This document shows positions 4,943 through 40,048 of a DNA stretch of 53,770 nucleotides, one piece after another; within the stretch, counting starts at the first letter, position 1, and each line of letters opens with the position of its first letter. Below the pieces are notes generated by a model. It searched no databases, was not told the origin of the DNA, and saw only the letters and a program-made list of their open reading frames with translations. Source of the stretch: a virus. The position numbers were made by a program, and so were the translations under genes. Location: positions 1-53,770 of IMG/VR virus record IMGVR_UViG_3300031227_000061. One strand, written 5' to 3'.

Positions 4943-4980
4943 AGAATATCGCACTGGCGGAGACGCAGCTACCGACCTAC
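4943..4980 (-). promoter_or_regulatory. Promoter-like element A (GGTAGC-N17-GATATTCT)
   Basis: The minus strand reads GTAGGTCGGTAGC, then 17 bases, then GATATTCT. The same upstream box at the same distance from a GnTAnnnT box occurs at 19016, 30618 and 40011. It lies upstream of the DUF3310 gene and would drive the tail chaperone and tape measure genes. The stop codon of the metallophosphoesterase gene (TAG) falls inside its upstream box. Confidence 0.6.
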
Positions 4981-6377
4981 GTGGTGGGCAGGTCGAGCCG
5001 CACGGTCTTTTTGCGCTCGGGCGGGTAGAATGCGTGTGGGATAGGTCGCAACTCATGGATAGTGCCATCGTCGGCGACGTCCATCTCAACCATCCACGCG
5101 GCGACCCCTGCCGATAGCCTCTTCCGACGCATGAATGGCGTCTGCCAGCATAAGGTGCCGGGACAGATCACATGAATGTTGCGAGGCGTGAAGTAGTTGC
5201 TTTTGTGGTAGTGGCCGATGAGCGCGAGATGTGGCTTCGTGCCACCTTCGAGGCTCTCAGCCCACTTCTGAACCTGGTACGACACGGCATAGCTGCTGCC
5301 ACCGTCGGGGTGCAGGAGGGAAATCTTCGTGCGGTACTCCGGCCCAACCCAGACGTTCTCCTCGTCGGCGCCGAGGTACACCATATCTTCGCGGCCAGGC
5401 ACCCAGAGCCGTTCCTCGCCGACCGGCCCCAGAGACGGGTACACAAAGCCGCGCGTCACCGCGTCGCCCATCGAGAACCCAGTTCTTGCGAAGCACCATC
5501 CCGCGTGCGACTTGCTGCTCTCGATGAAGTACGTCTTCATTCCCTCGCGGCGGGGGTATTCGTCGATGATGTACTTCGCGCATTCCCACTGCAACTGCAA
5601 TCCCGGCTGCACTTCGAGGTCGTGGCCGGGATACCCCTTGTTGCCGGGGCCGTCACTCAGGTCCCCCGAATGGAGAACAGCCGTGACGCCTTTCTCCAGG
5701 AACCAGTCGTACGTCCACTCAAGTTCTGCCCGTGCGCAGCTCAGGTTCTCCAGGTGCGTGTCGGAGATGGCCCCGAACCGGACGGTGCTCAGATTGTGGC
5801 CGGGCAGATCGTAGTCGCTGATCACGGCCGTCGCAGTCGTGAGAATTGACGCGGATGCGTTGTCGCCGCCTTTGTCAACGTGGACAACAAAGCCGGCCTC
5901 TTTGATCTGCTCCAGCGACTTGCGGATGGTCGCGACAGAGCGGTCAAAGCGGGTACTCAGTTGCTCGAGCGTGTAGTGTCTGTTCCGTTGCTTCAGCAGC
6001 CGGTGCAGCGGCCCGGCCAGAGACCCTTCCAGCCCCGTCTCCGGATCCGGCTTTTCCGGCTTCGTGCGCCGCGTGTTGATCGACATATCGAATGCCGGAA
6101 CGTCCTCCTCCAACAGCTTGTAACACGCGGCCTTACCTTTGATGCCCCGTTGCGTCCAGTATGTGTTGAGGTTGCCGCCAACGCCCTGGTAGCCGATGTG
6201 CGCAGCCATCTCGGGCCACGTCCCACAGTAGATGCGGAACGCGGCCAACTCTATGTCCGTCAGGCCGTAGATGCCTTCCATCTTGGCCCCGGCGAGATTC
6301 TTCAGCTTCCGGCCAAGCACATTCTTACATCGCTTCTTCAGGGCTACGTCTGCCTCTCCGGTGTTTTTGGCAGCCAT
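4977..6377 (-). CDS. Metallophosphoesterase with N-terminal HTH domains
   Basis: This 466-residue protein has two helix-turn-helix-like stretches (about 40-90 and a winged-helix-like 125-165, YTLEQLSTRFDRSVATIRK). A calcineurin-type phosphoesterase domain follows: DTH (206-208), GDLSD (238-242) and the C-terminal GHYHK (388-392). The usual GNH[D/E] motif III is replaced by ESSKSH near 286-291, losing the asparagine that helps bridge the metals, so activity is uncertain. A DNA-binding module fused to a phosphoesterase suggests a nuclease or a DNA-repair role, but it sits between tail tube and tape measure genes. The start has a strong site (GGGAGGAGGGACCT then ATG). Confidence 0.8.
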   Translation of the reverse strand: MAAKNTGEADVALKKRCKNVLGRKLKNLAGAKMEGIYGLTDIELAAFRIYCGTWPEMAAHIGYQGVGGNLNTYWTQRGIKGKAACYKLLEEDVPAFDMSINTRRTKPEKPDPETGLEGSLAGPLHRLLKQRNRHYTLEQLSTRFDRSVATIRKSLEQIKEAGFVVHVDKGGDNASASILTTATAVISDYDLPGHNLSTVRFGAISDTHLENLSCARAELEWTYDWFLEKGVTAVLHSGDLSDGPGNKGYPGHDLEVQPGLQLQWECAKYIIDEYPRREGMKTYFIESSKSHAGWCFARTGFSMGDAVTRGFVYPSLGPVGEERLWVPGREDMVYLGADEENVWVGPEYRTKISLLHPDGGSSYAVSYQVQKWAESLEGGTKPHLALIGHYHKSNYFTPRNIHVICPGTLCWQTPFMRRKRLSAGVAAWMVEMDVADDGTIHELRPIPHAFYPPERKKTVRLDLPTT

Positions 6378-6393
6378 AGGTCCCTCCTCCCTA

Positions 6394-7365
6394 TCAGGTA
6401 GTGAGCCCGTACGTCGGCGTGAAGCCGTAAGAGGCCGTATCCACGGACCACGACAGAATGCCGTTGGCGTCCACGGCGGGCCGCTGGTACGAATTCAGGA
6501 ACGAATAGTCAATAACCACCTGGTAATACCGGCGCCCAGAGCCGGAGCCAGCCTGCTCCCAGCGGAGCGTCAACTCGCCCCAAGTGTCGGTGTCAGAGAA
6601 TGCGTCGGGGAGTTCATCGTGCAACTGCACGGACAGCCGCAGGTTCTCCATGGTCGGCATCAAACGGTACGCCGTCCGGCTGATGGCGAGTTCGGAGCCG
6701 AGTGCGCCGAACATCTGCCGATGGCCTTGACGCTGCACGCCGTTGTCGCCAGACAGGTTCACGCCCGAGATGATGGGCTGATAGTCCGTGCTGCCGATGG
6801 TGAACGACTGGTATGCCCAGATCAGCACGTCGCCATCGGGGGCCGTGACGCCGCTTTGAGGCGACGTCTGTGGAATGTCAACCATGGGGATGATACCGAG
6901 GTCGTACCCGAGCGGCTGCCCCTCCTGCGAGCGGATGCTCCAGGTGTTGATGACACAGTCGAGGTACTGGGTCGCGATCCCGTCGCCGAAGACGTCGTCG
7001 GTCCCGTCCTCGATGACGATCTGCTGCAGGCCCTTGTTGAGGCCCGCATCGTCGGGGTCTGAGCGGTCGCGGAGACAATGCGTCAGAATGGTGCCGTCCG
7101 CGATGAGCCCACGAATGGACAGGTCCAATTCTTTGCGCCCCGGCACTTCGTCGAGCGCCTTTGACGCCCCGATGCCAAGCACCGGCGTGAAGTTATGCGT
7201 GACGTTCGAGCCCGGCAGACTACACGGGCCGAGGACGTTGCTGAGACCGGTTTGCAGGGATGGGGCGGTAGTGGCGCTAGGAGAGACCAGTGTTGCGGCC
7301 TGCGTCTTCCAGACGACATACCCCTGATGCCCCGCCCGATATTCCGCTGTGCTGAAGAGCGACAT
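6394..7365 (-). CDS. Major tail tube protein
   Basis: This 323-residue protein has the composition and position of a tail tube subunit. It follows the neck genes and precedes the chaperone and tape measure, and is a single beta-rich domain with phrases such as ELDLSIRGLIADGT, LRLSVQLHDELP and YYQVVIDYSFLNSY. It resembles the group of tube proteins of about 300 residues found in siphoviruses of actinobacteria and Thermus-like hosts. No adjacent sheath gene is present, which argues against a contractile tail. The ribosome site is GAGAGGTGA, the same octamer-like site used by the next gene upstream, and a terminator hairpin sits between the two genes. Confidence 0.7.
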   Translation of the reverse strand: MSLFSTAEYRAGHQGYVVWKTQAATLVSPSATTAPSLQTGLSNVLGPCSLPGSNVTHNFTPVLGIGASKALDEVPGRKELDLSIRGLIADGTILTHCLRDRSDPDDAGLNKGLQQIVIEDGTDDVFGDGIATQYLDCVINTWSIRSQEGQPLGYDLGIIPMVDIPQTSPQSGVTAPDGDVLIWAYQSFTIGSTDYQPIISGVNLSGDNGVQRQGHRQMFGALGSELAISRTAYRLMPTMENLRLSVQLHDELPDAFSDTDTWGELTLRWEQAGSGSGRRYYQVVIDYSFLNSYQRPAVDANGILSWSVDTASYGFTPTYGLTT

Positions 7366-7380
7366 AGGTCACCTCTCACG

Positions 7381-7407
7381 AAAAAAGCCCCGCCCAATGG
7401 GCGAGGC
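7381..7407 (-). terminator. Rho-independent terminator
   Basis: On the minus strand a 9-bp stem (GCCTCGCCC / GGGCGGGGC) with loop ATT is followed directly by six T. It follows the structural gene ending at 7453 and lies before the tail tube ribosome site, so the tube gene would need read-through or its own promoter. Confidence 0.85.
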
Positions 7408-7452
7408 TCAGAATGGTCGCAGGTTGTACGTGCGGGTACGGCGGGCGAGAGC

Positions 7453-8412
7453 TTAGAGCGCGAGACGCCGGTCGGGCGCCGGATAGAATGCGATGGCGTC
7501 AGCCGCCGTGCCGCCGCTTGACGTGGCCGATACCCCGCCGATGAAGCAGGGGTACACGAATGCGTCGGTGGAATACGTGTGGAGCAGGTTCGTGGTCACG
7601 GTGATCGACGTGTTCTCGTCGACGGAGGCGACGACGCCGTATTCCTGCTGCGCCCACGCCTCGGTGGGTGCGGAGCCGGTCCACTCAGTGATGAGCACCG
7701 TCTGGCCCTCGCTGAACTGAGCCGTGGCAGACATAAGGATGATCTTCTGTGCGGCAGCCGCCTCGGACGTCACAGCCTCCGCGCCGAACACATACGTGTC
7801 GCCGACGGCCCCGGTGGTGCCAGAGCCGACGACAACCTGCTCCACGGCCTCGTTCGCCTCGCTGGTGACCTTGAACGTGCCGGTGACGGTCCAGTTGTCG
7901 GTGCCGATCTTGGTCACGCGGCCGAGAACGGGTGACGCCGAAGCCGCGGCGGTGTCGATGTCCGCTGCCGCCACCATGCTGCCGCCGAGAATGAACGTCC
8001 CGAGGCAACGCCCGGGGGCCGATGCTCCTGCATCAGATCGCGCGTGCTTGTTCACCGTCGCCAGCGCGTAGCCCGCCGACGTCAGAATGGCCGCAGTGCT
8101 TTCGTCCACGCGGAGCATCAAGTCCGCGAAGAAGTCGGGGATGGTGGTGTCTTCGCCCGCCATGTACGTGCCGAGGTCGGACAGCCACGCATCCATTTCT
8201 GCGAGGTCCCCGAGGTCTGGCACGAGCAGGACGGCGTCGAGCGCCGTGGCGTTCGCGTTGCATACACAGTTCTCGTAGGTCTCGTCGCCGGTCGCGTCAG
8301 CGCGTGTCCAGATGTCAGTGCCGCCGGTCATTGCATAGCCGCTTGCCTGCACCTGGTAGGCGAACCGATCCATTGCGCTGAGTACGGCTTTCTGTACAGT
8401 CGAAAATGCCAT
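7453..8412 (-). CDS. Virion structural protein, probably tail or neck
   Basis: This 319-residue protein lies between the probable tail terminator and the tail tube gene. The first 140 residues are mostly helical. The rest is beta-rich with two repeating patterns (VLGRVTKIGTDNWTVTGTF and EYGVVASVDENTSITVTT), which look like small barrel or Ig-like decorations. I cannot assign a family. The start ATG 8412 was chosen over GTG 8421 because GAGAGGTGA is correctly placed only for the former. A strong terminator follows it. Confidence 0.75.
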   Translation of the reverse strand: MAFSTVQKAVLSAMDRFAYQVQASGYAMTGGTDIWTRADATGDETYENCVCNANATALDAVLLVPDLGDLAEMDAWLSDLGTYMAGEDTTIPDFFADLMLRVDESTAAILTSAGYALATVNKHARSDAGASAPGRCLGTFILGGSMVAAADIDTAAASASPVLGRVTKIGTDNWTVTGTFKVTSEANEAVEQVVVGSGTTGAVGDTYVFGAEAVTSEAAAAQKIILMSATAQFSEGQTVLITEWTGSAPTEAWAQQEYGVVASVDENTSITVTTNLLHTYSTDAFVYPCFIGGVSATSSGGTAADAIAFYPAPDRRLAL

Positions 8413-8443
8413 TTGTGTCACCTCTCAGCCCGCAGGCGGCGGG

Positions 8444-8998: not shown

Positions 8999-9013
8999 TC
9001 AATCACCGCCTCT

Positions 9014-13450: not shown

Positions 13451-13463
13451 AGCGAGCCTGCTT

Positions 13464-13479
13464 TCTCTCCGGTGGTTTG
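13464..13479 (-). promoter_or_regulatory. Start-associated repeat, copy 4
   Basis: Minus-strand CAAACCACCGGAGAGA before ATG 13450. It is non-coding here, which shows that the motif is kept as DNA/RNA and not merely as the TTGESE peptide seen in copies 1 and 2. The 105-base gap that contains it (13451-13554) shows nothing else except a short GC-rich hairpin without a T run. Confidence 0.6.
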
Positions 13480-14020: not shown

Positions 14021-14048
14021 CAAAGGGGGCGCCCCGAAGGACGCCCCT
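14021..14048 (-). terminator. Hairpin terminator after the major capsid gene
   Basis: The minus strand forms a 9-bp stem (GGGGCGTCC with GGGCGCCCC, one G-U pair) and a TTCG loop, followed by CTTTGCG. The stem is strong but the T run is only three long. It lies between the capsid stop and the next ribosome site. Confidence 0.65.
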
Positions 14049-15540: not shown

Positions 15541-15566
15541 TACAAGCCTCCTCGTATTCGGTCACG

Positions 15567-15594
15567 AAAAAGCCCCCGCCGGGTGGCGAGGGCT
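15567..15594 (-). terminator. Rho-independent terminator between scaffold and capsid genes
   Basis: The minus strand forms a 10-bp stem (AGCCCTCGCC with GGCGGGGGCT, one G-U pair) around an ACCC loop, followed by five T. It lies between the scaffold stop and the capsid ribosome site. Confidence 0.82.
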
Positions 15595-15632
15595 CTTGTG
15601 GTTTGCGACAGGTTGTGTACGTCAGGCGGGTG

Positions 15633-16587: not shown

Positions 16588-16612
16588 AAAAGCCCCCGCA
16601 ACGTACGGGGGC
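16588..16612 (-). terminator. Rho-independent terminator between protease and scaffold genes
   Basis: A 7-bp perfect G/C stem (GCCCCCG with CGGGGGC) around a 7-base loop is followed by TTTT on the minus strand. It lies just upstream of the scaffold ribosome site. Confidence 0.8.
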
Positions 16613-16663
16613 CATAAAGCACAGTGCATCTATCATGTCGCCGTCAGGCGGGGGTCGTTACGG

Positions 16664-17671
16664 TCACCTCACCCCCCTGCGGCCTTTGAGCGATGCCAAT
16701 GCCTTGCGCACGTTGCGCGCGAGGCGTTCGATATTGGGCCGGCTTCGTCGCCGCCGCTTCCGCCTGTTGGTTGTTGTCAGAGATTTCTCCGTTTTGCGGG
16801 CCATGGCGGCGCCGCATTCGGTGCAGGCGAGGTCGTCGCAGGGTTCGCCAACGTCGTGCTCCTCTTCGTGCCCACACGACGGGCACACACAGAGCCCGCC
16901 CGGGCCTGCTGCTTCCGGGCCACCGTTGCGCCCCAGATAGTTGTCGCGGGCGCCGCCTTCGAGGCTTTCGCGCTTGATCGCCTGCCCACCGGTCATCGTG
17001 GACGGATTGACGCCGCTGCCGGCCGCCAGGGCTTTCGCCAGGGCAAAGACCGTGGGGTTCGGACGTACGCGCTTGATCTGTTCCAACTCTGGCTGCACGA
17101 CAATGACGTCAGGTCCGTCGCCGTCAGTGGTCTGGGCGTCGTCAGACAGCGCCGCGGAGAGGCTCTTCACCACCCGAGCAACCGAAGAGGGGTTCACGGG
17201 TTGCGCACATAAGGCGGCGCCCTTCGAGATCATCTTCTCAAAGCCGCCTCCAGGCTTGCGGATGGCGACACCGTCAGCAGAGAACCCCAGCTTCGCGCCC
17301 GCGTCGGCGAGGTAGTGCGCACGCTTCAACGCCGGCGGTGCCAGGGCAACGTCATTGATGGGATAGATGCGCGTCTCGATCCGGGTGCCTTTGCCGTTGA
17401 GGCGCACGTCAAACTCGCGTGCGGCATCGGCGGCCGTAATCGACCGCACGTCGGTGATTTCACCAATGGTCTCGTCGCCGTGGTCCCAGTTGACCTTGCC
17501 CCACTCGCGCATGTAGTCGTAACTCTTCTGCATCATGTCAAAGGGGATGCTCTCGCCTTCGAGATCGACAGTCTCGTCCGACAGGATGCCGACGACGCGG
17601 AGGGAGCCGTCCGCCTGCTTGACGGACTTGAAGAGCGGGATATATGTGGCGATCCTGAGTTGGTCAGGCAT
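16664..17671 (-). CDS. Prohead protease (XkdF/HK97-like) with capsid N-arm copy and zinc ribbon
   Basis: A 335-residue protein. Residues 1-175 fit phage prohead serine proteases that process the capsid shell: His64 in [11 protein letters not shown] and Ser131 in [12 protein letters not shown] are the likely catalytic pair. Residues 207-243 repeat the capsid N-arm ([18 protein letters not shown] then [10 protein letters not shown]). Residues of about 260-295 hold two CxxC pairs ([20 protein letters not shown]), a zinc ribbon. The basic tail ([11 protein letters not shown]) may bind DNA or the acidic scaffold. ATG 17671 has GGGGGA upstream; the region before it is a terminator. The extra C-terminal parts are unusual for this family. 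Confidence 0.8.
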
Positions 17672-17689: not shown

Positions 17690-17718
17690 AGAAGAGCCCC
17701 GCCGTGGAGGCGAGGCTC
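17690..17718 (-). terminator. Hairpin terminator upstream of the protease gene
   Basis: A 10-bp stem (GAGCCTCGCC with GGCGGGGCTC, one G-U pair) and 5-base loop on the minus strand. The T run is weak (TTCTGATTC). It follows the CxxCC protein gene. Confidence 0.65.
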
Positions 17719-17774: not shown

Positions 17775-18146
17775 TTATGAGCGAGACTCGGCTACCAGTC
17801 GTCGCAACAGCGCGCACGTCTCCAGCATGTACTCGGGCGGGTCCGCAACAAGCTCGGGACACGGGAACCTTCGGCACATATCGGGCCGGGTCTCATAGAT
17901 GCCGCAGCGCCCGTCCGGCAGAATGTGCTTGCACTCACAGTCGATGCGAATTTGGTCGCCGTCGTAGTACGGCTCGCCTAACTGTTCGACATTCGACAGC
18001 GTCTCCGCAACGTCGTCTTTGAGCCGCTTCCGCTGCCATGGCCTGCCTGTGAGGGCTCCGTAGACGTAGAAGCCCCTGCAGCAGTTACCGTCGCACTCCG
18101 CGCACTCCGGTGCGTTCTCCCGCTTCGCGAGTTCTGCGTCAGTCAT
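17775..18146 (-). CDS. YkgJ-family CxxCC metal-binding protein
   Basis: This 123-residue protein has the cysteine pattern of the YkgJ (CxxCxxCC) family: CAECDGNCC at 15-23, then [19 protein letters not shown] and MCRRFPC. Members bind iron, zinc or an Fe-S cluster and often lie next to radical enzymes or metal-handling genes; their biochemistry is poorly known. Its ATG overlaps the stop of the radical SAM gene (ATGA), so the two are translationally coupled. A pair like this between helicase and protease genes is not part of a standard head module. Confidence 0.85.
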
Positions 18147-19009
18147 GCCAGCGTCAACTGCCCTTTGCGGTAGGGCCGATGGTGCTGGTACTCCGCGAAC
18201 GGCACGGCCTGCGTGTAGCGCAAGTTCGCGTAGTATGAACAGGTGCGATCAAGTTCCTTGTGTGTCCACGCCGGATGCACATAGGAGTTCTTTTCGAGTG
18301 CGTCCAGCGGCTGATAGCGCATCGGGAACGGCCTGTATCCGCGCTCCACGACCGCCCCCAGGCGATACTGTGCGTCTTCCGGCGTGTCATCGAAGCCGAT
18401 GAGACAGTAGATGTACACCGCCGTCTTCGGGAAGCCGGCCGCCGCGATCTGCTCCACGGCACTCCACACGGCTGCCTCTTCGCCCAATGCGTCCCATCCC
18501 ATGCGCAGGTGCTTGACGTCCAGGCTCTTCAGCATTTCGAGTCGTTCGGGCGTCAGGAACCTCGGCTCGATGCCCTGCAGGTCAACCGCTTCCTGCCCCC
18601 GCAGGCTTTCCACCACGCGGGCAAAGTGCTTGTCGCTGCAGGCCATCAAGTTGCTGTCGCAGAGTATGCGCCCCGCCGGCCAGTCCGCGAGTTCCTGGTA
18701 TTCGCCCTCGATCCGGCGAACGCCGCAGAATGCGCAGGACATAGGGCACCCGCGAGTGGTGCGGGTTGCATCGCGATGGTACTTCGTCAGGGGCGCCTGA
18801 AGCAGCGTCATTGGCGCCGTATCTGCCCATTCGGCGACGTACTCGGGCATCAGTTGGACGGCAGGGCCTCCCGCCACGGCCCGTTCTGCACCATGCGCGA
18901 GGACCAACGCCCGCGCTTTCGGTAAGAGCCAGGTGAACGGGACCGAGATGCACAAGCGGCCCTGCTCTCGCCACGAGATAATGTCCTTATGCCAAGTCGT
19001 GTCAGCCAT
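18143..19009 (-). CDS. Radical SAM protein
   Basis: A 288-residue protein with the radical SAM cluster motif CxxxCxxC (TRGCPMSCAFCGV, Cys88, Cys92, Cys95), followed by alternating helices and strands of a TIM-barrel type (DLQGIEPRFLTPERL, HLRMGWDALGEE, AVYIYCLIGFDDTPEDAQYR). It should bind a 4Fe-4S cluster and S-adenosylmethionine and start radical chemistry; the substrate cannot be read from sequence. The N-terminal 75 residues resemble the lead-in of B12-radical SAM proteins but are too short for a full cobalamin domain. The ATG sits about six bases after a promoter -10-like box with no normally spaced ribosome site. Confidence 0.9.
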   Translation of the reverse strand: MADTTWHKDIISWREQGRLCISVPFTWLLPKARALVLAHGAERAVAGGPAVQLMPEYVAEWADTAPMTLLQAPLTKYHRDATRTTRGCPMSCAFCGVRRIEGEYQELADWPAGRILCDSNLMACSDKHFARVVESLRGQEAVDLQGIEPRFLTPERLEMLKSLDVKHLRMGWDALGEEAAVWSAVEQIAAAGFPKTAVYIYCLIGFDDTPEDAQYRLGAVVERGYRPFPMRYQPLDALEKNSYVHPAWTHKELDRTCSYYANLRYTQAVPFAEYQHHRPYRKGQLTLA

Positions 19010-19015: not shown

Positions 19016-19053
19016 AGTCTATCGGTCCATCCGCCACGCAGCTACCGACCTGC
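19016..19053 (-). promoter_or_regulatory. Promoter-like element B (GGTAGC-N17-GATAGACT)
   Basis: The minus strand reads GCAGGTCGGTAGC, 17 bases, GATAGACT, then GGGGGC and the ATG of the radical SAM gene at 19009. A start point 6-8 bases after the -10 box would give a leaderless or near-leaderless message. The TAG stop of the 89-residue gene upstream lies inside GGTAGC. Confidence 0.65.
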
Positions 19054-19311
19054 AGCCCCAATCATCCGCTGCAACGTCACCCGCTCTTTGCACAGGTCCA
19101 CATAGTACCCACGGGCCTTCTGAGCACGCGGCTTGTCGGCAAGTGGCCCCATGGCCCCAATGGCCTCTTCAACCTTCCCCAGGCGCTCCTGTGCGGCCCG
19201 GATAACGTCCTCATCAAGTGCCTTCGCGGCGTGCCGTCGCCCTTCGGCGTGTGCCGTCAGCTTGCGGAGGCCGGCCACGGACGCCTCGTGCTGCTCTCGC
19301 GTGATTGCCAC
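19042..19311 (-). CDS. Small helical protein
   Basis: An 89-residue, fully helical, charged protein (EQHEASVAGLRKLTAHAEG, AAQERLGKVEEAIGAMG) that probably forms a short coiled coil. I recognise no family. GTG 19311 overlaps the helicase stop (TAGTG), with CGGAGG upstream, so it is coupled to the helicase. Its own stop codon is part of promoter element B. Confidence 0.65.
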   Translation of the reverse strand: MAITREQHEASVAGLRKLTAHAEGRRHAAKALDEDVIRAAQERLGKVEEAIGAMGPLADKPRAQKARGYYVDLCKERVTLQRMIGAAGR

Positions 19312-22300
19312 TATGCCGCCGCCTCCGAGGTGTTGGTGATCTTCCGCGCGTCTTGCTCAAGGTTGTGGTGATACATGCTCCTGATGAGCCCCGCGCGGCC
19401 CGTGTCGTCGAGGAGCTCCGTCGCCTCCTGGAATGTGCTACCCAGCTCGTACTTGTCTTTGACGCGCTGTGCGTTGCGCTTGTCGAGTGGCGTGTCGGCG
19501 ATGGCGTTATGGACGTACACCTGCTCACGCAACTGCCCGATCCGGTGCATACGGCCGGTTCGCTGCTCGTGTGTCTTCGCCGTCATCGGCTGATCGTAGT
19601 GGTACAGCCAGCCGGCGCGTTGCAGGTTGGCGCCACACGCCGCCGCGTCGGACGCGATGAGAATGTCACTCTTTGCGGCCTCTCGCGACGCCTTCGCGCG
19701 TTCCGCCGGCGACATGCCGTCGGTGTCCAGCGGCGGATGGAAATTGAGCCGCGCCACTTCCTTCTCAGTTGACTGGTTCTCGCCGGTCAGGATGCCGACG
19801 CGGTAGCCGGCTTTCTCCATCTGCTTCTTCAGCATCCGGCAGCTTGCCAGGTTGTGCGCGAACACGATCCCGGGCAACTGCCCGCCGTCGTCGTCTTTCG
19901 CGGCGTACTCCTGCGCCGTCGCCATGACGTGCTGCAGCTTTGCGTTCTGCTCTGGCGGCACGTCATCGGAAGCGTTCTGGATCCGACTCAGGGCAATGTC
20001 TCTCAACATGCCCGCCGCCGATCCGCGCTCAACGGCAATCGCCTTCGCTTCTTCGTCAGTCGCGCCCTCAAAAGAGCGAGGAGAGAGCGTTCGCAGGGCT
20101 GCAACATGCTCCGGGGAACCGGGTTCGGCGACCTGTGCTTTGCGATAGCTGGCCAGCACCTCCCGATAGGCGTCTCCCTGATGCTTCGAGAGCTTGATTT
20201 CGTGGTCTTTGACGACCATTTCGGAATCCGGCGAAATCTTCGTCGCGTACACGTACGGGGCCATTTCGCGCTGCAGGGCCTCGCGCGTCGCCTTCGTGTC
20301 GAGCCCGTAGCGGCGATGAAACTCCTTGTAGCGGCTCTTGGGATACAGGTCGGGCCGCAGCTTGTGGAGGACGTCGAATGCCTCCGACGTGTCGTTCTTA
20401 ACCGGAGTTCCGGTGGCATTTACGTGATAATCATGAGCCGTCGTCAGGTCGTCAAGGGCGTTCGCCATGACGCTGTTCGGCTTGCCCACACGGTTGAGGA
20501 GATCGTGCCCCTCGTCGATCATCGAGAAGTCGAACGTCCAGCCGGCGTCTTTCAGTGCTTCCTGCACCTGCGGGCGGCGCTCTTCCTCTTTCGTCTGTCG
20601 CATCCAGGTCGCGGCGGCCGTCACGTCCCCGCCGAACCGCTGTTGCGCCACTTCGTACACAATGTCATCGCGCATCGCCTGATGGGTCACGAAAACCATA
20701 TCGACCTTCGGGTCCTTGTAGGCCGCGAGGCGTTGCGACAGGGGCATACCGGCGGCCACTTTCCAGCGATACCCGCGGGTGCCGTCGGCAGAGTGCGGCT
20801 CGAGGAACCGGAGCGCCTCAGAGCCAAACTGCCCGGCGACCACGGACGGCACGGCGAAGATGCCCTTCGAGACTTTGCCCTGCTTCTGCAGGTTGGTGAA
20901 GGAGCCGAGGCCCATCAACGTCTTGCCAGACCCCACGCCGGCATGAACGCCGACGCGCCCCTGCCTTTCCACGAGCTTTACGGCACGCTGCTGAGGAGCG
21001 TACTTGCCATCCATCGAGACGGCCGGCGGAAGGCTTACGGCCTGCCCCGGACGAAAGTTCACCGCAAGTTGCGGCATGATCGCCGCCAGTTGCTGCTCTA
21101 CGCCGTCGCCGAGGGTGGCGCGTTCTGACAGCGGCTTGTACTCGTCTTTGTCCGCGTCATCGTCGAAGTCGAAGCCGAATGACGACTGGTGCGCGTTGCG
21201 CTCGTCTTGGAGTATTTTATCTACAAACTTACGCCGCTCGCCCGGCAGGAATTTCCCTTTCTCATCGCGAAGCGCCACGTTCGCGCCAATCTTTGCGCGC
21301 CTGCTGGTTTCTTCCTCGATCTTCCGTTCCCGCTCTTCTGCCGTCATGGTGCCGATGGTGAACCGATCCCAGTTGGGGACCTGCTTCGTGCCGGCCTTGA
21401 GTGCCGCGCCTGTGCGCGAGCCGTACTGCTTCGCGAATGTCTCGAGGAACGCCCCGCGCATATGGTCGCGTACGGCGTCGTGTGCGTCGGAGACCGACGA
21501 GAACGACGACACAAAGCGTTCCCATGCGTCCGGCGGGGCTTCCGTCGGTTCCCCTTCCGCCGCGCCACGGGCAACCTCGATCTCTTCGCCGAAGATGTTG
21601 GTCTGCACGCCGGCGGTCTCTTCTGCCCGCGTCTGTGCCGTACGGACGGCCTCACGCGCCGTTGTCGCGTCCTCGCGGCTGTCGGCGGTCAGGTGCTCCC
21701 AGAAGTAGTCACGGAGTGCCGACTGTACCTGGTGCCGGTTGTCCTCCGAGACGGGTGCGAATGCCATCGCCGCCTCCGGCATTTCGGTGAGCGTGGCGTG
21801 AACCGTCTCGTCAGTGATGTGCCCGAGTATGATGGTCTGAGCCCCGAGCGTCGGCACGTCCTCTGCCAATTCGCCGCGGTGGATCATCTTCTGCCGGGCG
21901 GCCTCGGTTCGTTCGGCGTACCACGCCGCCTGTTCGTCGGTGTCGAGGTCATCAGGTGGGAAATAGTCGCGAATGGCGTCATTGTAAGCACGCTGCAGGT
22001 CATTTGGGACGTTCTGCGAGATGAATGCCTGCGTTGTGGCCTCTCGTCGCACCGCCCGCGGGTTGTACGGGTTGTCGGCAAGGGCACGGTCGAGAAAGTC
22101 GAATGTCTCTTCCTGCACGGCGTCGGGCGCCATGCCGGTGTCGAGGGCGATATCCCGCTTGAATGCGAACGCCGCTTCGGCCTCGGGGTACGTGATTTCC
22201 TGCGACGGGTCCCGGAAGCCGGCCGGCAGCCAGCCGTCCTCGTCCTGCTCTCCGGACTTGATGGCGACGGCGTCCTTATAGTCCTGCGCCGCTTCCGGCG

Positions 22301-24203
22301 ACGGCGGGTTGAGGAGCTTGTACTCCGCTTCCGGCGCGATCCGGAGATACTTGTTGTTGAGGTCAGAAACCACTTCATGCTCGCCGGCGTCGAGGCCGAA
22401 TGCCGCGGCGAGTTGATGCGCCTGCTTCGAGCTTATCTGGCCGAGGGATGCCTTGATTTCGGCCGGGTTGTCATTCATCATCGCGAAGTTCAGCGTGCCG
22501 ATAAACTCCAGCCGGCCGAGGGCCTCGCCCAGGGTAGACGCCGCTTCGTCCAGCAACTCCTTCCGCTGCTCATTCAACTGCTGCACCATCATCAGGTCGT
22601 CGGCGTCGCAGTCGGAAAGCGTCTTCATGCCGGCGACCATCGCGTCCGCCTGCTTGATGAGGGCAGCACCACGGGTTGCGGCCCCGCGTGCGATCTGCGC
22701 CTGTGTTTCGGCGGGTCTTAGATTTTGTACAGCGCGTTCCTCGTTGATTTCCTGTAGGTCCTCGACGGTTGCCGTATGCGCCCGTTCAAGCCCGTTGCGG
22801 ATGGCGCGGAACATGGCGGGGCTGTCCTTGTACTTTTCCTTCCAGGTGTTCGCCAACAGCGTTGCCGTCGCGTCGAGGCCGATGTGGTCGGCAACGAGAC
22901 GGTCAATCGGGCACGGCTCCTGCATGATGCCTTGCGCTATGTCCATCATTTCGGCGTAGCGGCCGGTGTTGATGTGCTCTTCAGCAGGGGCCGCCGCCGG
23001 GTGGTTCTCCTGCGCGTCCTCGATGGTGGACATGAGCGTGTCGAGTGACTGCTTCATGTTCTTCTGATGGAAGTCGGCTTTGAGCGCCTCTTCGAGCTGC
23101 TCCCTATCACGCTTGCCGATATTCTGTGACACAACAAGCGAGACACCCTTCGTGATTTCGAGCACCTGATCGGCGTCGGACGCCCGCCCGAGCTTGTTGA
23201 TTTCCGAGTTGACCGCGGCCATCTTCTGCTTGTACTCCTGGCGGGCCATCAGAACGTCTTTGAGCTTCGCGGGGTCGATGGGCTTTTCTGCGCCCTTGAC
23301 GCGATGCAGGCCCTCTTCCCGCAACGGCTTGTCGGCTTCCCGTGCCGAGGCCGCCCCGGCCAATAGTTTCTGCGTCATTTCCTCCGCGATTTCGGCGTCC
23401 GCAATGTAGCCGCTCTCTTCGGCAGCGGCGAACGACGCCAGCCGCGTTTCTTCGGATAGCTCGCCGGCTTCCTCGCCGCCAAGCCCGTTCTCTTCCGCGA
23501 ATGCCTTCAGGCTGTCCATGTAACCGAGCCCGGTGGTGTCTTTCTGCGCGGACGTGTCAATATCGCCCAGCGACACTTCGCCCATTTCCGCAGCGCGCTT
23601 GTCATTGTGATACTTGAGGAGCTTCTCTTCCTCCTCCGCAATGCGCTTGTCTACTTCAGCCATGGCGCTCTTCTGGCGGGCACGCTCAAACCGTGCGCGC
23701 TGCTTCTCGGGCATCTGCTGCGCAATGTCATCCGGCAGCCGCACTGACTCTTCCCAGCCCTGCGCCTCCGAGATCGCGGCAAGGTATTCTGCCGTAGCCT
23801 CTTCCTTGGCACTCGCGAGTTGCTCCGCCGCTTCCGCCTTCGCCGCCTTGGCGTGTTCCGGCAGTGCTTCATTGCGTTGCTGCTTTGCCTGCTGCCGTTC
23901 CCGCGCCGTCTGCTTCCACTCTTTCTCCGACCGCAGGCGCGTGAGCTTCATCGCATTCAGCTTGCCGCCGGCCCCGCCGACCACCGTGCCCGTGCCGTCC
24001 GAGTTCACCCGGATCTTGATGGGCATGCCCTTGGAGTCGTCGCCGCCCGGGTGGACCGTGATCCACTTGTAGTCCGGCTCATCGACGGCTTTGTACAGGA
24101 CCACCGACTTTGTGAGCGTCCCCCAGCGGATAAGGGCGTCCAGGACGTTCGCCGGGATGTGCTTCGGCAGGCGATAGGTTTTGTCGGCGACGCGGATGAG
24201 CAT
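19311..24203 (-). CDS. Giant SNF2/DEAH-like helicase protein, probably virion-associated
   Basis: A 1630-residue protein. Residues of about 45-85 carry WITVHPGGDDSKG and VVGGAGGKLNAMKL, a leader seen on other large phage multidomain proteins. Residues of about 90-250 are charged coiled coil (EWKQTARERQQAKQQRNEAL, VDKRIAEEEEKLLKYHNDK). About 250-1060 are helical without recognised motifs. A superfamily 2 helicase of SNF2 type follows: Walker A GVGSGKT near 1090, DEGH near 1227, NATGTPVKN near 1264, and motif VI QRTGRMHRIGQ near 1547. Such proteins (compare DarB of P1) can be packaged and injected to protect or remodel phage DNA. Its place in the head block supports this, but packaging is inference. 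Confidence 0.88.
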   Translation of the reverse strand: MLIRVADKTYRLPKHIPANVLDALIRWGTLTKSVVLYKAVDEPDYKWITVHPGGDDSKGMPIKIRVNSDGTGTVVGGAGGKLNAMKLTRLRSEKEWKQTARERQQAKQQRNEALPEHAKAAKAEAAEQLASAKEEATAEYLAAISEAQGWEESVRLPDDIAQQMPEKQRARFERARQKSAMAEVDKRIAEEEEKLLKYHNDKRAAEMGEVSLGDIDTSAQKDTTGLGYMDSLKAFAEENGLGGEEAGELSEETRLASFAAAEESGYIADAEIAEEMTQKLLAGAASAREADKPLREEGLHRVKGAEKPIDPAKLKDVLMARQEYKQKMAAVNSEINKLGRASDADQVLEITKGVSLVVSQNIGKRDREQLEEALKADFHQKNMKQSLDTLMSTIEDAQENHPAAAPAEEHINTGRYAEMMDIAQGIMQEPCPIDRLVADHIGLDATATLLANTWKEKYKDSPAMFRAIRNGLERAHTATVEDLQEINEERAVQNLRPAETQAQIARGAATRGAALIKQADAMVAGMKTLSDCDADDLMMVQQLNEQRKELLDEAASTLGEALGRLEFIGTLNFAMMNDNPAEIKASLGQISSKQAHQLAAAFGLDAGEHEVVSDLNNKYLRIAPEAEYKLLNPPSPEAAQDYKDAVAIKSGEQDEDGWLPAGFRDPSQEITYPEAEAAFAFKRDIALDTGMAPDAVQEETFDFLDRALADNPYNPRAVRREATTQAFISQNVPNDLQRAYNDAIRDYFPPDDLDTDEQAAWYAERTEAARQKMIHRGELAEDVPTLGAQTIILGHITDETVHATLTEMPEAAMAFAPVSEDNRHQVQSALRDYFWEHLTADSREDATTAREAVRTAQTRAEETAGVQTNIFGEEIEVARGAAEGEPTEAPPDAWERFVSSFSSVSDAHDAVRDHMRGAFLETFAKQYGSRTGAALKAGTKQVPNWDRFTIGTMTAEERERKIEEETSRRAKIGANVALRDEKGKFLPGERRKFVDKILQDERNAHQSSFGFDFDDDADKDEYKPLSERATLGDGVEQQLAAIMPQLAVNFRPGQAVSLPPAVSMDGKYAPQQRAVKLVERQGRVGVHAGVGSGKTLMGLGSFTNLQKQGKVSKGIFAVPSVVAGQFGSEALRFLEPHSADGTRGYRWKVAAGMPLSQRLAAYKDPKVDMVFVTHQAMRDDIVYEVAQQRFGGDVTAAATWMRQTKEEERRPQVQEALKDAGWTFDFSMIDEGHDLLNRVGKPNSVMANALDDLTTAHDYHVNATGTPVKNDTSEAFDVLHKLRPDLYPKSRYKEFHRRYGLDTKATREALQREMAPYVYATKISPDSEMVVKDHEIKLSKHQGDAYREVLASYRKAQVAEPGSPEHVAALRTLSPRSFEGATDEEAKAIAVERGSAAGMLRDIALSRIQNASDDVPPEQNAKLQHVMATAQEYAAKDDDGGQLPGIVFAHNLASCRMLKKQMEKAGYRVGILTGENQSTEKEVARLNFHPPLDTDGMSPAERAKASREAAKSDILIASDAAACGANLQRAGWLYHYDQPMTAKTHEQRTGRMHRIGQLREQVYVHNAIADTPLDKRNAQRVKDKYELGSTFQEATELLDDTGRAGLIRSMYHHNLEQDARKITNTSEAAA

Positions 24204-28365: not shown

Positions 28366-28371
28366 GTCTTT

Positions 28372-28388
28372 CACTCTCCAGTGGTTTG
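28372..28388 (-). promoter_or_regulatory. Start-associated repeat, copy 5 (variant)
   Basis: Minus-strand CAAACCACTGGAGAGTG before ATG 28365. It differs from copy 4 by one base in the core and one after it. Confidence 0.5.
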
Positions 28389-30617: not shown

Positions 30618-30655
30618 ACTGTAGCAGGGCGGAGAGGGCGCTGCTACCGACCTAC
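30618..30655 (-). promoter_or_regulatory. Promoter-like element C (GGTAGC-N17-GCTACAGT)
   Basis: The minus strand reads GTAGGTCGGTAGC, 17 bases, GCTACAGT. It lies about 38 bases upstream of ATG 30580 in the largest gene-poor gap of the window (30581-30787) and would drive the paralogue array and the accessory block. Confidence 0.65.
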
Positions 30656-35966: not shown

Positions 35967-35979
35967 AATCCACAACCGC

Positions 35980-36087: not shown

Positions 36088-36249
36088 TCATCGCCGCTTC
36101 AGCGCCCCTGCCTGCTGGAATAACGGGGACTTGCCGCAATGCCGCTTTGCCATTGCGTCACGGAACATCTGCAGCGATTCGGGGGAAACCACCCGCCGGG
36201 CCAGCTTCGCCCTCTGCTCTGGCGTCATGGCAAGCCTGATCTGCGTCAT
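36088..36249 (-). CDS. Small basic protein, 53 residues
   Basis: A short frame starting by ATGA overlap with the stop of the gene at 36246. It reads MTPEQRAKLARRVVSPESL then FRDAMAKRHCGKS and ends KRR. Basic, helical and protein-like; no family recognised. It is the last gene before the strong terminator. Confidence 0.55.
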   Translation of the reverse strand: MTQIRLAMTPEQRAKLARRVVSPESLQMFRDAMAKRHCGKSPLFQQAGALKRR

Positions 36250-36512
36250 GGCTTCTCCCACAACTGCCCTTCGGACCCCTCTACGGACATGATCCCAAAG
36301 ACGTACTCCTCGTAGTCACCTGCTACAAGCCGGGGCACGCGAAGGAATTTCGTCGGCACGGCCTTCATACCCAACACCTCGCCCACGCCGTCCCATCCCG
36401 GCAGCATCGGAACGTCAATGCGTTCGGCGCCTTCGGGCCGTCCGGCGCGGAACAGGGCCTGCGCGTTCTTCAGCACCGGCAGCGCCGCTTTGAGCAGTTC
36501 CTTCTGCGTCAC
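36246..36512 (-). CDS. Hypothetical protein
   Basis: An 88-residue protein with an N-terminal helix (TQKELLKAALPVLKNAQALF) and a beta-rich rest (GVGEVLGMKAVPTKFLRVPR, YEEYVFGIMSVEGSEG). I recognise no family. It is coupled to both neighbours by ATGA overlaps. Confidence 0.65.
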   Translation of the reverse strand: MTQKELLKAALPVLKNAQALFRAGRPEGAERIDVPMLPGWDGVGEVLGMKAVPTKFLRVPRLVAGDYEEYVFGIMSVEGSEGQLWEKP

Positions 36513-36856
36513 GCGACCGCCCCCTCTACGTCGAACACCAGGAGCGCCCTCAGTTGCATCCGCTGCTTCTCGGGGTACAGAGCCAAGAGGGCGTCGAGCT
36601 TGCCACGCCGCTCCACCTGCCGCAGGATGCTGCGGGCATACTTCCGGCCGGGGGCGCTATGGTTCAACTCGTCGAGGGTTCCGGGGCACATGGCGCTGCC
36701 GTCATCACCGCGGTTCGTGATCGTGCGCCCACGGCGGCTGGACAGGTCGGGCATGCTGATGGTGCGGCTGATGTCGACCTGCGCGCCGGTGAGGGAGCAC
36801 TCATGCCCTTGGCGGGCGCGGTTGAATTCGCAGGCGGGGCAGTCACGGCACATCAT
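36509..36856 (-). CDS. Cys-cluster hypothetical protein
   Basis: A 115-residue protein that opens with CRDCPACEFN and has further cysteines at HECSLTG and AMCPGT, a likely zinc site. The C-terminal half is helical and basic (YARSILRQVERRGKLDALLA). It overlaps the sigma-like gene by four bases. A role in transcription is possible from context only. Confidence 0.65.
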   Translation of the reverse strand: MMCRDCPACEFNRARQGHECSLTGAQVDISRTISMPDLSSRRGRTITNRGDDGSAMCPGTLDELNHSAPGRKYARSILRQVERRGKLDALLALYPEKQRMQLRALLVFDVEGAVA

Positions 36857-37146
36857 GGGGCCAGCACCTCACGGAACTCCATGGGTTCAGGGCAACCGTT
36901 GAGCTTACGGAGGGCGTTCTCGATGGCGTTGCGGGCGGTGACGCGCACATAGCCACGCCGGTTCTTCGCACGCCGGACCTCGGGGAGCTTCTCCCACAAG
37001 CGGATGTGGACTTCCTGCACGAGGTCCTCTACCTCTATGAGCCGGGGGACGCCCTGCTCCAAGGCACGGATGCACTCGCCGATGATCAGCCCCTGGTACG
37101 TGTCAGTAATGGCCGCGAGCTCCTCGTTCCGGGGTGCGCTTTGCAT
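36853..37146 (-). CDS. Sigma-70 region 2-like protein without region 4
   Basis: A 97-residue protein. Residues of about 15-85 read as sigma factor region 2: GECIRALEQG, EVEDLVQEVHIRLWEKLPEV (regions 2.1-2.2, core-binding) and YVRVTARNAIENALRKLNG (regions 2.3-2.4, -10 recognition and melting). It ends there, with no region 4 for the -35 box. The gene just upstream (37222-37668) ends in a region-4-like helix-turn-helix, so the two may form a split sigma factor like SigO-RsoA of Bacillus. The 75-base A+T-rich gap upstream (37147-37221) could hold a host-type promoter. Confidence 0.65.
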   Translation of the reverse strand: MQSAPRNEELAAITDTYQGLIIGECIRALEQGVPRLIEVEDLVQEVHIRLWEKLPEVRRAKNRRGYVRVTARNAIENALRKLNGCPEPMEFREVLAP

Positions 37147-37221
37147 TCTTCTCTATTAACAAGGACACCAAAACACCCCAATCTTGAAGCATAGCAGACG
37201 AAAATAGTTGCCGCAGTGCGC

Positions 37222-37668
37222 TCATATGTGTTCCATTATCTCTTCGCCAGCGGCGGTGTAGCCGCAGAGGAAGATGGCAACTTCGCGGACGCCGGAACGG
37301 ACCCATCGGGCGGCGGTGGTTTGATGGACGCCGAGGCGTGGGGCGCAGTGGCGGGAGTCGCCGAAGCCTCGAAGGAAGTACAGCGTGAGGGCTTTGCACC
37401 AGTTGAGATCGTGACACATGCCGACGTGCGAGATGGCAAGCTCGATGTCGCACTTGCGGGCGGCGAGCATTTCGATAGGAGCGCCGGGGACGTAGATAGA
37501 GCCGCGGCCCTCTTCGGCGTCGGATGTGCCGCGGAGGTAGCCGACTGAGGCGTCGGCGCCCATCTGGGTATAGCCCCAGAGGGCTTCGGCTACCTGTCGG
37601 GGCGTCCACTCGCTACGGACACGGCGGGCGCCGTTGGGTGGTCGTTTGGTGCCTGAGGCGGTGAGCAT
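37222..37668 (-). CDS. HTH protein, sigma region 4/ArpU-like
   Basis: A 148-residue protein. The C-terminal part (ALTLYFLRGFGDSRHCAPRL, GVHQTTAARWVRSGVREV) has the helix-turn-helix layout of sigma region 4 and of ArpU-type phage late regulators. The N-terminal part (WTPRQVAEALWGYTQMGADA) is helical, with MLAARKCDIELAI in the middle. It may bind a -35-type box, alone or with the region-2-like protein encoded next. Confidence 0.6.
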   Translation of the reverse strand: MLTASGTKRPPNGARRVRSEWTPRQVAEALWGYTQMGADASVGYLRGTSDAEEGRGSIYVPGAPIEMLAARKCDIELAISHVGMCHDLNWCKALTLYFLRGFGDSRHCAPRLGVHQTTAARWVRSGVREVAIFLCGYTAAGEEIMEHI

Positions 37669-37789
37669 GGATAGGCCTCCGCGTCAGGGCTCTGTTGTGG
37701 CGAGCCCGGTGTTGGTGGTGTACGGCGCCCCCTTTTTGGCGCGTGCTGCCTCTCCCACCGGGTGCGGCTGCTGTGGCGTTGCGGCTACA

Positions 37790-38023
37790 TCAATTTGCCC
37801 CTATCAGAACGAAGATGAGACAGCCCTCGACAATCTGCAGTAGGACAAACACGAGGCCAAATACCCGGTCCCCCACGGTTACCGTCCGGCGTGGCTTGGC
37901 GGTCTCGTGCAGGTATGCGTGGAGGCCACGCCAGAGCACGTCCCCCATCGCAATAAACCCAAGTGAGGCAGACATTGCGCCACAAATCAGAAGGACGATC
38001 TCAGCGACAGTCAGCGATTCCAT
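37790..38023 (-). CDS. Two-helix membrane protein, holin candidate
   Basis: A 77-residue protein with two membrane segments (AEIVLLICGAMSASLGFIAM and RVFGLVFVLLQIVEGCLIFV) joined by a basic loop (ETAKPRRTVTVGDR). The size and layout fit class II holins, but the lysin-like gene is 15 kb away, so this is only one possibility. GAGGAAAGCC precedes the ATG. Confidence 0.6.
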   Translation of the reverse strand: MESLTVAEIVLLICGAMSASLGFIAMGDVLWRGLHAYLHETAKPRRTVTVGDRVFGLVFVLLQIVEGCLIFVLIGAN

Positions 38024-38084
38024 GGCTTTCCTCCATCGGCTTCGTCAGTTCTGGGTTGGTCTCTGCATCGTGCGGCGGTTGTGG

Positions 38085-38318
38085 CTACACGTACTTGCGC
38101 GTCGTATCGGCCGCAAGCATCAACTCGCCCTCTTCATCGACGGCTTCATACGTCGCGCGGAAGATCGCGTCCTCGCACGGGTACTGCTCGCCCTGGATGC
38201 CGGTAATGAGCCACCAGCCGGGGTGCCCGTGCATCAGGCCTTCCTTCGTGTCCACGTCGAACGCCTCTTCCATCTGCACGGCTTCAATCACTACTGGGAG
38301 CTTGCGGTACTTTGGCAT
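38085..38318 (-). CDS. PGDYG-like small phage protein
   Basis: A 77-residue protein of a type common in phages: a KYRKLPVVIEAVQM start, a GWWLITGIQGEQYPCEDAIF core and ATYE near the end. The function of this family is unknown. It overlaps the 3' end of the next gene upstream by 35 bases. Confidence 0.75.
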   Translation of the reverse strand: MPKYRKLPVVIEAVQMEEAFDVDTKEGLMHGHPGWWLITGIQGEQYPCEDAIFRATYEAVDEEGELMLAADTTRKYV

Positions 38319-38958
38319 GGGTCGTCTCCTTTTGTCGTGGCGGCATAATCATCGCGTACAACTCGACGAGCTCGTGGTCGCACTGATAAAGCGGCCCGTA
38401 CTCAAGCCAGTCATACGTCCGGCCGTCATCCGGCCTGACGCCAATCCGCGGTCCCTTGTCGGTCTCTTCGGCGAAGAACGTGCCCTCGTCGGACAGCCTG
38501 ACGGCGCGTCCGCGACGGTAGAGGACGCCCTCGATGTCGAAGTCAAATCGCTGCCGCAACGCGCTCCACACATTTACCTCAACCAGCAGACAGGCGAACA
38601 GCGCGCCGCGCTTGCCGACCACGTTCTCATCCCGAAGATAGAGCGACGAAGGGGCATCGGGGCCGAGGATGGCAACGCAACGCTCCATCCAGTCTGCCGG
38701 GAGGTCTTCGTCGTCCGCCACATCCCATAGCCCCACGGCACCATATCGCCCCCCTATGCTTTCGCCGCGTCCCCAACTCAGGTTGCCGAAGCCCAGGTGG
38801 TGCTTCTCCATCTGGGGCCGAATGCCCAGCCACCACACCACCGCCTGAAGCATCCACCTGGCGCGCCGGTACCTGCTGTTGACCCAGTCGCGCCGCATCG
38901 CCGGTTCCGTAGCCATGCAGCGGATGTCGAGCCATAGCCTGCGTAGGGTTCTCTTCAT
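38284..38958 (-). CDS. Hypothetical protein
   Basis: A 224-residue protein with a basic, aromatic N-terminal third (MKRTLRRLWLDIRC, RYRRARWMLQAVVWWLGIRP), a Gly-rich middle (FGNLSWGRGESIGGRYG) and an acidic, beta-rich C-terminal half. ATG 38958 has TTGGAGGGG upstream and overlaps the resolvase stop by four bases. No family recognised. Confidence 0.65.
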   Translation of the reverse strand: MKRTLRRLWLDIRCMATEPAMRRDWVNSRYRRARWMLQAVVWWLGIRPQMEKHHLGFGNLSWGRGESIGGRYGAVGLWDVADDEDLPADWMERCVAILGPDAPSSLYLRDENVVGKRGALFACLLVEVNVWSALRQRFDFDIEGVLYRRGRAVRLSDEGTFFAEETDKGPRIGVRPDDGRTYDWLEYGPLYQCDHELVELYAMIMPPRQKETTHAKVPQAPSSD

Positions 38959-39464
38959 GGCGTCCCCTCCAAGTTCAATCTCTTCACGCATTCGAGCGCA
39001 TCCCAGATCGCGGCGCGCATGTACTCGGCTACGCCCTCCGTCAACTCGGTCACGACGATCTCCACACGCTGCTCTTTCTCGGGCACGCCGTAGATCACGT
39101 CGCCGCTGCCCTGCGGCACGCGGGTGATATTGTCATCCCGCACGATCTCCGGCTGCAGGCCATCGCATAGCGACTTCTCGATGTTGTCTTTGTCGGGGAC
39201 GCCCCTCTGCTTGCTGATGTAGGCGATCCAGTCCACGCGGACGGGGACCGTGAACACGCTGTCATTGCGGCGCATGTTCTTCGGGACGAGGCCGGCTTCA
39301 TTGGCGGCCACGAATGCGCAGAGCCGAACGCGGCCCTGGTACTTCAGGCACGCCTGTGCCTTCGGGCTCCACTTGCTGCGCTGGGTCATACGGACCTTCG
39401 GCACCGGGCGGCCGGGGACGGTGAATGTGAGCGTGCGGAGGGCGGTGGTGGTGTCGGTTGGCAT
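38955..39464 (-). CDS. RusA-like Holliday junction resolvase
   Basis: A 169-residue protein of RusA type: an N-terminal FTVPGRPVPKVRMTQRSKW strand and basic segment, CLKYQGRVRLCAFVAA, then the metal-binding DKDNIEKSLCDGLQ. RusA enzymes dimerise and cut four-way junctions in phage recombination and packaging intermediates. ATG 39464 has GGGGAG upstream and overlaps the previous stop (TGATG). It fits with the RecT-like protein upstream. Confidence 0.85.
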   Translation of the reverse strand: MPTDTTTALRTLTFTVPGRPVPKVRMTQRSKWSPKAQACLKYQGRVRLCAFVAANEAGLVPKNMRRNDSVFTVPVRVDWIAYISKQRGVPDKDNIEKSLCDGLQPEIVRDDNITRVPQGSGDVIYGVPEKEQRVEIVVTELTEGVAEYMRAAIWDALECVKRLNLEGTP

Positions 39465-39679
39465 CAGCCGCTCCCCATAAACTCGCGCCCGTGCGGTGTC
39501 CGCGCCCACGCCCCGAATGCCCTGCCGGACCCGTGGCAGACGCGACACCAGTCGCTTTCAATGGGCCGGGTGCTGCCAACGCCCACGACGCGACTGTCCC
39601 TGCCCGATCCGCCGCACTCGGGGCACCGTTGCCAGTGTGGCTTGCCGATGGCGTGTGTGTCGGTTGCGGGGAGGCTCAT
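39464..39679 (-). CDS. Small DnaJ-type zinc finger protein
   Basis: A 71-residue protein made almost wholly of two CxxCxGxG elements (CPECGGSGR and CRVCHGSGR), as in DnaJ zinc domains. It probably binds one zinc ion and a protein or nucleic acid partner. The stop overlaps the resolvase start, so the two are coupled. Confidence 0.7.
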   Translation of the reverse strand: MSLPATDTHAIGKPHWQRCPECGGSGRDSRVVGVGSTRPIESDWCRVCHGSGRAFGAWARTPHGREFMGSG

Positions 39680-39987
39680 CCGTCCGCCCCTTCGCTCTCG
39701 GTATTCTCGCCGTCATCGCCGCCGTGCGCCGCCACGATCTCTTCCAGCAGCGCCTGGGACCCGAGAAGCATAGCAACCGGCTCCTCCCCGATCTCGCGTT
39801 CCATGCAAAACAACTCCGTGAACGCCTTCCCCAACCTGCCCTCCATGCCCCTGAAGTTCACGCTGCCGCCATTGCGCAGGTCATAACTCAGAGACGTGTG
39901 TGTGTCGGTGCCGTCCACCGTCTGTGCGCTACGAACCCGCTCGATAGGACCCAGCTCCACGTATGCCACTCGCTTGTCTGTCGCCAT
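39676..39987 (-). CDS. Hypothetical acidic protein
   Basis: A 103-residue protein: VAYVELGPIERVRSAQ, SLSYDLRNGGSVNFRGMEG, a helix with LFCMEREIGEEPVAMLLG, and an acidic end. First gene after promoter element D. ATG 39987 has AAAGGAAG at a good distance; a GTG nine bases upstream is less likely. No family recognised. Confidence 0.65.
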   Translation of the reverse strand: MATDKRVAYVELGPIERVRSAQTVDGTDTHTSLSYDLRNGGSVNFRGMEGRLGKAFTELFCMEREIGEEPVAMLLGSQALLEEIVAAHGGDDGENTESEGADG

Positions 39988-40010
39988 CCATCCCACTTCC
40001 TTTCACCATC

Positions 40011-40048
40011 AGTCTAGCGCTTCGCCGGGGCCGTTGCTACCGGGGCCG
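40011..40048 (-). promoter_or_regulatory. Promoter-like element D (GGTAGC-N17-GCTAGACT)
   Basis: The minus strand reads CCCGGTAGC, 17 bases, GCTAGACT, and the start codon at 39987 follows at a distance that leaves room for a ribosome site. The TAG stop of the upstream gene lies inside GGTAGC. It matches element B at seven of eight downstream-box positions. Confidence 0.6.

Follow-up and report, generated by a model that had tools for sequence, protein, structure and literature searches.

The question raised by this locus is whether four short elements that stand ahead of genes in a virus genome constitute a phage-specific promoter class and, if so, which protein or proteins read them. The window (the whole stretch of DNA analysed) is a 53,770-base virus contig with a G+C content of 63.5%, is ~93% coding, carries nearly all of its genes on the minus strand, and encodes a large terminase, a portal protein, an SPO1-type major capsid protein, a 1,630-aa helicase, RecT, RusA, and an SbcC-like ATPase. 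The initial annotation had reported minus-strand matches to a two-box pattern at four places (4943-4973, 19016-19046, 30618-30648, and 40011-40041), and all four are present there, on the coding strand and in one orientation. The form common to all four elements is CGGTAGCWRCG-N13-G[AC]TANNNTG, which has exactly four matches in 53.8 kb. The upstream box is longer than first noted, comprising CGGTAGCWRCG in four of four elements and GGTCGGTAGCWGCG in three of four; three of the four elements extend, as described earlier, to GTCGGTAGC, of which the window holds no further exact copy.

The geometry of the elements is fixed, and is that of a bipartite promoter with a non-host upstream box. The 17-base spacing reported initially is identical in all four elements when measured to GNTANNNT, but those 17 bases end at a G two bases ahead of the hexamer, and the spacing from GGTAGC to the TANNNT hexamer is 19 bp; a reading of the 17 bp as a canonical −35/−10 spacer was therefore rejected. 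The gap between the box and the −10 block is a rigid 13 bp in all four elements (15 bp to TANNNT). With TANNNT set at −12 to −7, the box covers positions −38 to −28, that is, it lies over the usual −35 position, and the invariant G of the downstream block falls at −14, as in extended −10 promoters. The earlier characterization of the two boxes holds: the downstream block, G[AC]TANNNTG in all four elements, is compatible with a −10 element, TANNNT being also a housekeeping-type −10, and the upstream box is unlike the host −35 element TTGACA, with only 2-3 of 6 matching positions at the four sites. Promoters of the TTGACA/TATAAT type show no excess over chance in the window. The upstream box is non-palindromic, and the rigid 13-bp gap together with a non-palindromic box fits a single monomeric reader fixed to polymerase.

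The elements are far rarer in randomized sequence than in the window, with 0.01 matches to the initially proposed pattern expected from dinucleotide shuffles vs. four observed. To control for choice of the pattern after the fact, we scored every 6-mer at spacers of 10-25 before TANNNT and compared the scores with those from 60 Markov-shuffled genomes. The best dyad in the genome is GGTAGC-N19-TANNNT (P 1.8e-7), as compared with 9.8e-7 for the best dyad of the 60 shuffled genomes. GGTAGC occurs 18 times over the two strands, and TANNNT follows at +19 after just these four occurrences; CGGTAGC..CG occurs four times, in each case at one of the four sites. An unbiased repeat search independently recovers the box (family D8), and the box also comes out on top when intergenic regions are compared pairwise (15.6 vs. 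shuffled maxima of 11.5-12.8). Low-copy, well-conserved phage sigma promoters have been found by such pairwise intergenic comparison before (PMC4331800); the motif predicted in that work for phage 7-11 differs from the one later mapped (PMC8948821), which calls for caution with purely computational promoter calls, the present one included. The −10-like part lies in an intergenic gap at all four sites, gaps making up 7.5% of the window, and occurrence as often inside genes as between them, which the initial annotation had named as grounds for refutation, is not what is seen. Its prediction of further matches before other operons failed: the contig has no fifth match and no weaker extra sites, the next matrix score being 10 vs. 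37-42 for the four. What is found is a recurrent, fixed-geometry element just upstream of genes and absent elsewhere in the genome. We conclude that the observation of four elements is confirmed as real and non-random, and that the elements are very probably phage-specific promoters.

Each element precedes a run of genes. Site 4 (40.0 kb) has its upstream box, CGGTAGCAACG, which is without the GGT extension, at 40032..40042 (minus strand), overlapping the stop codon of gene 40037-40585, and its −10-like block, GCTAGACT, at 40011..40018 (minus strand); the next gene is 39676-39987/39996, and the run ahead of which the site lies includes RusA, the sigma gene discussed below, terminase, and portal. 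Site 3 (30.6 kb; upstream box GGTCGGTAGCAGCG at 30639..30652 and −10-like block GCTACAGT at 30618..30625, both on the minus strand) is followed by gene 30266-30580/30588 and lies ahead of small genes, a gene for a 2'-5' RNA ligase-domain protein, and the giant helicase gene. Site 2 (19.0 kb) has an upstream box, GGTCGGTAGCTGCG, at 19037..19050 (minus strand) that overlaps the stop codon of gene 19042-19311, and a −10-like block, GATAGACT, at 19016..19023 (minus strand); the next gene, the radical-SAM-like gene 18143-19009, is the first gene ahead of the capsid and tail run. Site 1 (4.9 kb; upstream box GGTCGGTAGCTGCG at 4964..4977 and −10-like block GATATTCT at 4943..4950, both on the minus strand) precedes a gene for a DUF3310 protein (4620-4868, starting at 4868) and the last gene cluster. 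The start codons, placed initially 7-75 bases downstream of the elements, can be assigned more closely, to 75 bases at site 1, 7 bases at site 2, and, depending on start choice, ~30-38 bases at site 3 and 15-24 bases at site 4. At site 2, the ATG of 18143-19009 lies 6 bases past the −10 element without a normal ribosome-binding site, and the message from this site is therefore probably leaderless or nearly so. Within the run that site 2 would drive, GC-rich strong hairpins followed by T runs occur on the coding strand between structural genes (7385-7409, 14026-14047, 15541-15632, 16591-16613, and 17694-17718) and are probable intrinsic terminators or attenuators.

The phage encodes a candidate specificity factor. 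Residues 18-82 of the 97-aa protein of ORF 36853-37146 (minus strand) match Pfam Sigma70_r2 (E 2.9e-9; 37 bits; cut-off 24), the region that binds core polymerase and recognizes the −10 element; the proven sigma of phage 7-11 scores 26.4 bits on that model. The protein is ECF-like: many NCBIfam ECF sigma models match the same stretch, each below its own cut-off. A single-sequence AlphaFold model of the protein is a helical bundle of moderate confidence (mean pLDDT 70), and a fold search with this model placed several sigma chains near the top and gave no significant PDB match. The protein is without region 4, the part responsible for −35 recognition: it stops at the end of region 2, and no downstream frame encodes a region 4. 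A frameshifted, once-complete sigma was accordingly rejected, the other frames being without region 4. Scans of the window with PF08281 and PF04545 likewise detected no region 4 beyond one sub-threshold match, in an ORF beside terminase. A possible host-type extended −10 element for the sigma gene, TGCTATGCT, is present at 37188..37196 (minus strand); its hexamer matches at just 4 of 6 positions, and its −35 is poor. Gene 36509-36856 shares 4 bases with the end of the sigma gene; its protein has an N-terminal Cys cluster (CRDCPAC...HEC) and, speculatively, could be a zinc-binding partner or an anti-sigma factor.

Since the sigma region 2 protein is without region 4, its use of these sites would need a separate reader for the upstream box. 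The best candidate is a 148-aa protein encoded just upstream of the sigma gene (37222..37668, minus strand), which has a weak C-terminal helix-turn-helix (E 0.15-0.17 against HTH_50, HTH_23, and HTH_Tnp_4; residues ~98-125). The helix-turn-helix looks region 4-like by eye, a likeness that no profile backs; the protein has no match to sigma region 4 models (including PF08281 and PF04545), and its AlphaFold model was of too poor quality to use. A gene for a single-subunit phage RNA polymerase had no match, in a search whose controls were silent too; promoters of such polymerases are continuous, and the element here is bipartite.

In geometry, the four sites match promoters proven for another phage sigma factor. 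The late promoters of Salmonella phage 7-11, mapped experimentally and read by the sigma SaPh711_gp47, have the form GTAAtg-(16)-aCTA (PMC8948821). The sites here, GTAGCW-(16)-GMTA, are likewise bipartite, have the 16-base gap in matching register, and share GTA in the upstream box and TA in the downstream box; both phages have few promoter copies (eight in phage 7-11, four here) and encode an ECF-like sigma region 2. The differences are that the upstream box is GTAGCW rather than GTAAtg, so that the sites fall outside GTAAtg-(16)-aCTA, that phage 7-11 belongs to an unrelated phage family, and that the 7-11 sigma has a region 4 (a sub-cut-off Pfam match, E 1.5e-4, as computed here) whereas the sigma here has none. 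On this partial sequence match, the sites may work like phiEco32/7-11 sigma promoters without being members of that class. In its lack of region 4 the sigma here resembles phiEco32 gp36, which reads a single element, tAATGTAtA (PMC8948821), in contrast to the two boxes here. By that example, the sigma here, acting alone, should not need an upstream box. The discrepancy between two promoter boxes and a single sigma domain could be resolved by a second protein or by a host sigma with an activator. Precedents for a second protein are the two-subunit sigma SigO-RsoA of Bacillus (PMC8103513) and, by analogy, the split sigma gp55-gp33 of T4 (PMC2988020), in which region 2 and region 4 functions reside on separate proteins, one of them region 2-only. 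The protein of 36853-37146 is such a region-2-only protein; unlike in SigO-RsoA and gp55-gp33, no region 4 protein is recognised here, and the partner is a candidate.

Use of the four sites by the phage sigma is, on an even balance of probability, the best single explanation. The initial annotation had proposed a promoter class read by a modified or phage-encoded sigma factor; that proposal is upheld in part and has good indirect support, in that a sigma region 2 protein is encoded, the elements are laid out like the promoters proven for another phage's sigma, and host-type promoters are not above chance; against it, this sigma is without region 4. According to this explanation, the four elements would recruit host core RNA polymerase to which a phage specificity factor is bound, with G[AC]TANNNTG serving as −10 element and the CGGTAGCWRCG box (11-14 bp, at approximately −38 to −28) replacing the host −35 element. 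The most likely reader of the −10 element would be the sigma region 2 protein, and the box would be read by a separate protein, the two acting as a divided sigma or as a sigma plus co-activator. The specific version in which a divided sigma acts on host core polymerase, the 97-aa region-2-only protein reading the −10 element and the helix-turn-helix protein reading the 11-14 bp box, is possible if somewhat unlikely. As for timing, we infer that expression of the sigma would begin from a host-type promoter and would later be driven in addition by site 4, which lies upstream of its own gene; the switch would then turn on four leftward gene runs, from sites 4, 3, 2, and 1.

The main rival explanation, possible if somewhat unlikely, is that the host housekeeping sigma reads the −10 element while the box is bound, in the manner of MotA, by an activator of the phage (the 37222-37668 protein or a different one), the phage sigma region 2 protein serving other sites or some other purpose. 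This would suit both the absence of region 4 from the phage sigma and the combination of TANNNT with a G at −14, which is that of a housekeeping extended −10. It also has a precedent in T4 middle promoters, which combine a host −10 element with a phage MotA box that replaces the −35 element and is bound by a monomer (PMC2988021), and which the sites here resemble in having a host-like −10 and a phage box at the −35 place. The T4 MotA box, (a/t)(a/t)(a/t)TGCTTtA, lies at 12 ± 1 bp from the −10 element, whereas the sites here have a different, longer box at a 13-bp gap to GMTANNNT. Against this rival, MotA and AsiA relatives were absent from the results of the family scans made, the sites are spaced exactly like promoters proven for a phage sigma, and the phage sigma would be left without a role.

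A further explanation, that the box is the operator of a phage repressor placed over ordinary host promoters, draws on a Cro/CI-type helix-turn-helix protein encoded at 47375-47752 and on the consideration that an operator over the −35 position could likewise hold a fixed distance to the −10 element. It is improbable: the box is non-palindromic and has no copy away from a −10 element, the −35 match of the supposed host promoters is poor, and no tyrosine integrase was found. Chance resemblance among unrelated intergenic sequences, for which the small number of copies and the after-the-fact choice of pattern could speak, is very improbable, given the expectation from shuffles, the rank of the dyad against 60 shuffled genomes, the independent recovery of the box by repeat and pairwise searches, and the location of all sites before genes on a single strand.

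The preferred reading, use of the sites by the phage sigma, has a bearing beyond this contig. A poorly known bacterial virus is here probably redirecting host RNA polymerase to phage genes, a strategy with precedents in other phages; the DNA signal and the trimmed-down sigma are new. The analysis provides four candidate promoters and one candidate specificity factor; for this phage group, we found no transcription data. Should the 97-aa protein act together with a separate reader of the box, the pair would form a divided sigma of minimal size that uses a bipartite promoter, and a possible orthogonal expression system for the laboratory; even if the box is read by an activator and not by this sigma, the four sites mark likely transcription units.

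The phage has no close relative among the sequences searched. Homologue searches that used TerL, capsid, helicase, or sigma singly as the query detected no relative, and alignment-based searches reach relatives at ~28-38% protein identity. The motif is absent from all distant relatives checked. Pattern scans of IMG/VR returned 53 and 81 loci with one match each, and the 53, which were inspected, include none resembling this promoter set and appear to be fortuitous, unrelated hits inside other sequences. A sigma region 2 above cut-off is present in 0 of 20 relatives in one set and 3 of 48 in another, indicating that the sigma is sporadic in the phage group. The nearest relative, IMG/VR record 3300031463_000547 (G021; 66 kb; 36% identity in the helicase and ~25-33% in other full-length shared proteins), likewise has a gene for a sigma region 2 protein and has a bipartite element of its own, GCAGTCTGATT-N9-TGACTGCGATAAGTAGA, in two copies (16707-16743 and 40654-40690), one upstream of the terminase gene region and one directly before the gene preceding the capsid gene. 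This element is likely a promoter class of that phage's own, and the parallel of sigma plus bipartite element is suggestive. Another relative, Bordetella phage PHB04, has strong intergenic repeats of other kinds and no sigma was found there; the comparison is thus no proof of a link between sigma and repeats, and intergenic repeats alone were dropped as a sign of a sigma. Among the PHB04 repeats are a palindromic, operator-like sequence, TTGTCGTGACACGACAA, and another family, of long repeats; they occur between early-type genes, in the intergenic regions. A separate repeat in G021, CGGCYGARAGGACNNACCNNGAGCCGA, in which a ribosome-binding-site-like AGGAC lies in the loop of a possible stem, occurs in intergenic regions ending at 17490, 42864, and 49586, before three genes including the capsid gene.

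Four other features of the window were observed. The gene for the 1,630-aa helicase protein (19311-24203) lies between the portal and capsid genes, an arrangement shared by many distant relatives among phages and bacterial contigs and a conserved, unusual trait of the phage group. The longest stretch without a called gene is 46344-46862 (519 bases). A ribosome-binding-site module, AAACCACYGGAGAG, is conserved upstream of several genes (4204-4224, 4634-4654, 28367-28387, and 13451-13475), two of the copies being identical across 21 bases. Tandem 11-bp repeats (GGACTGGTCCC units) at 44485-44546 and 44695-44734, within the putative replication initiator gene 43889-45082, resemble the iterons of a replication origin located inside an initiator gene.
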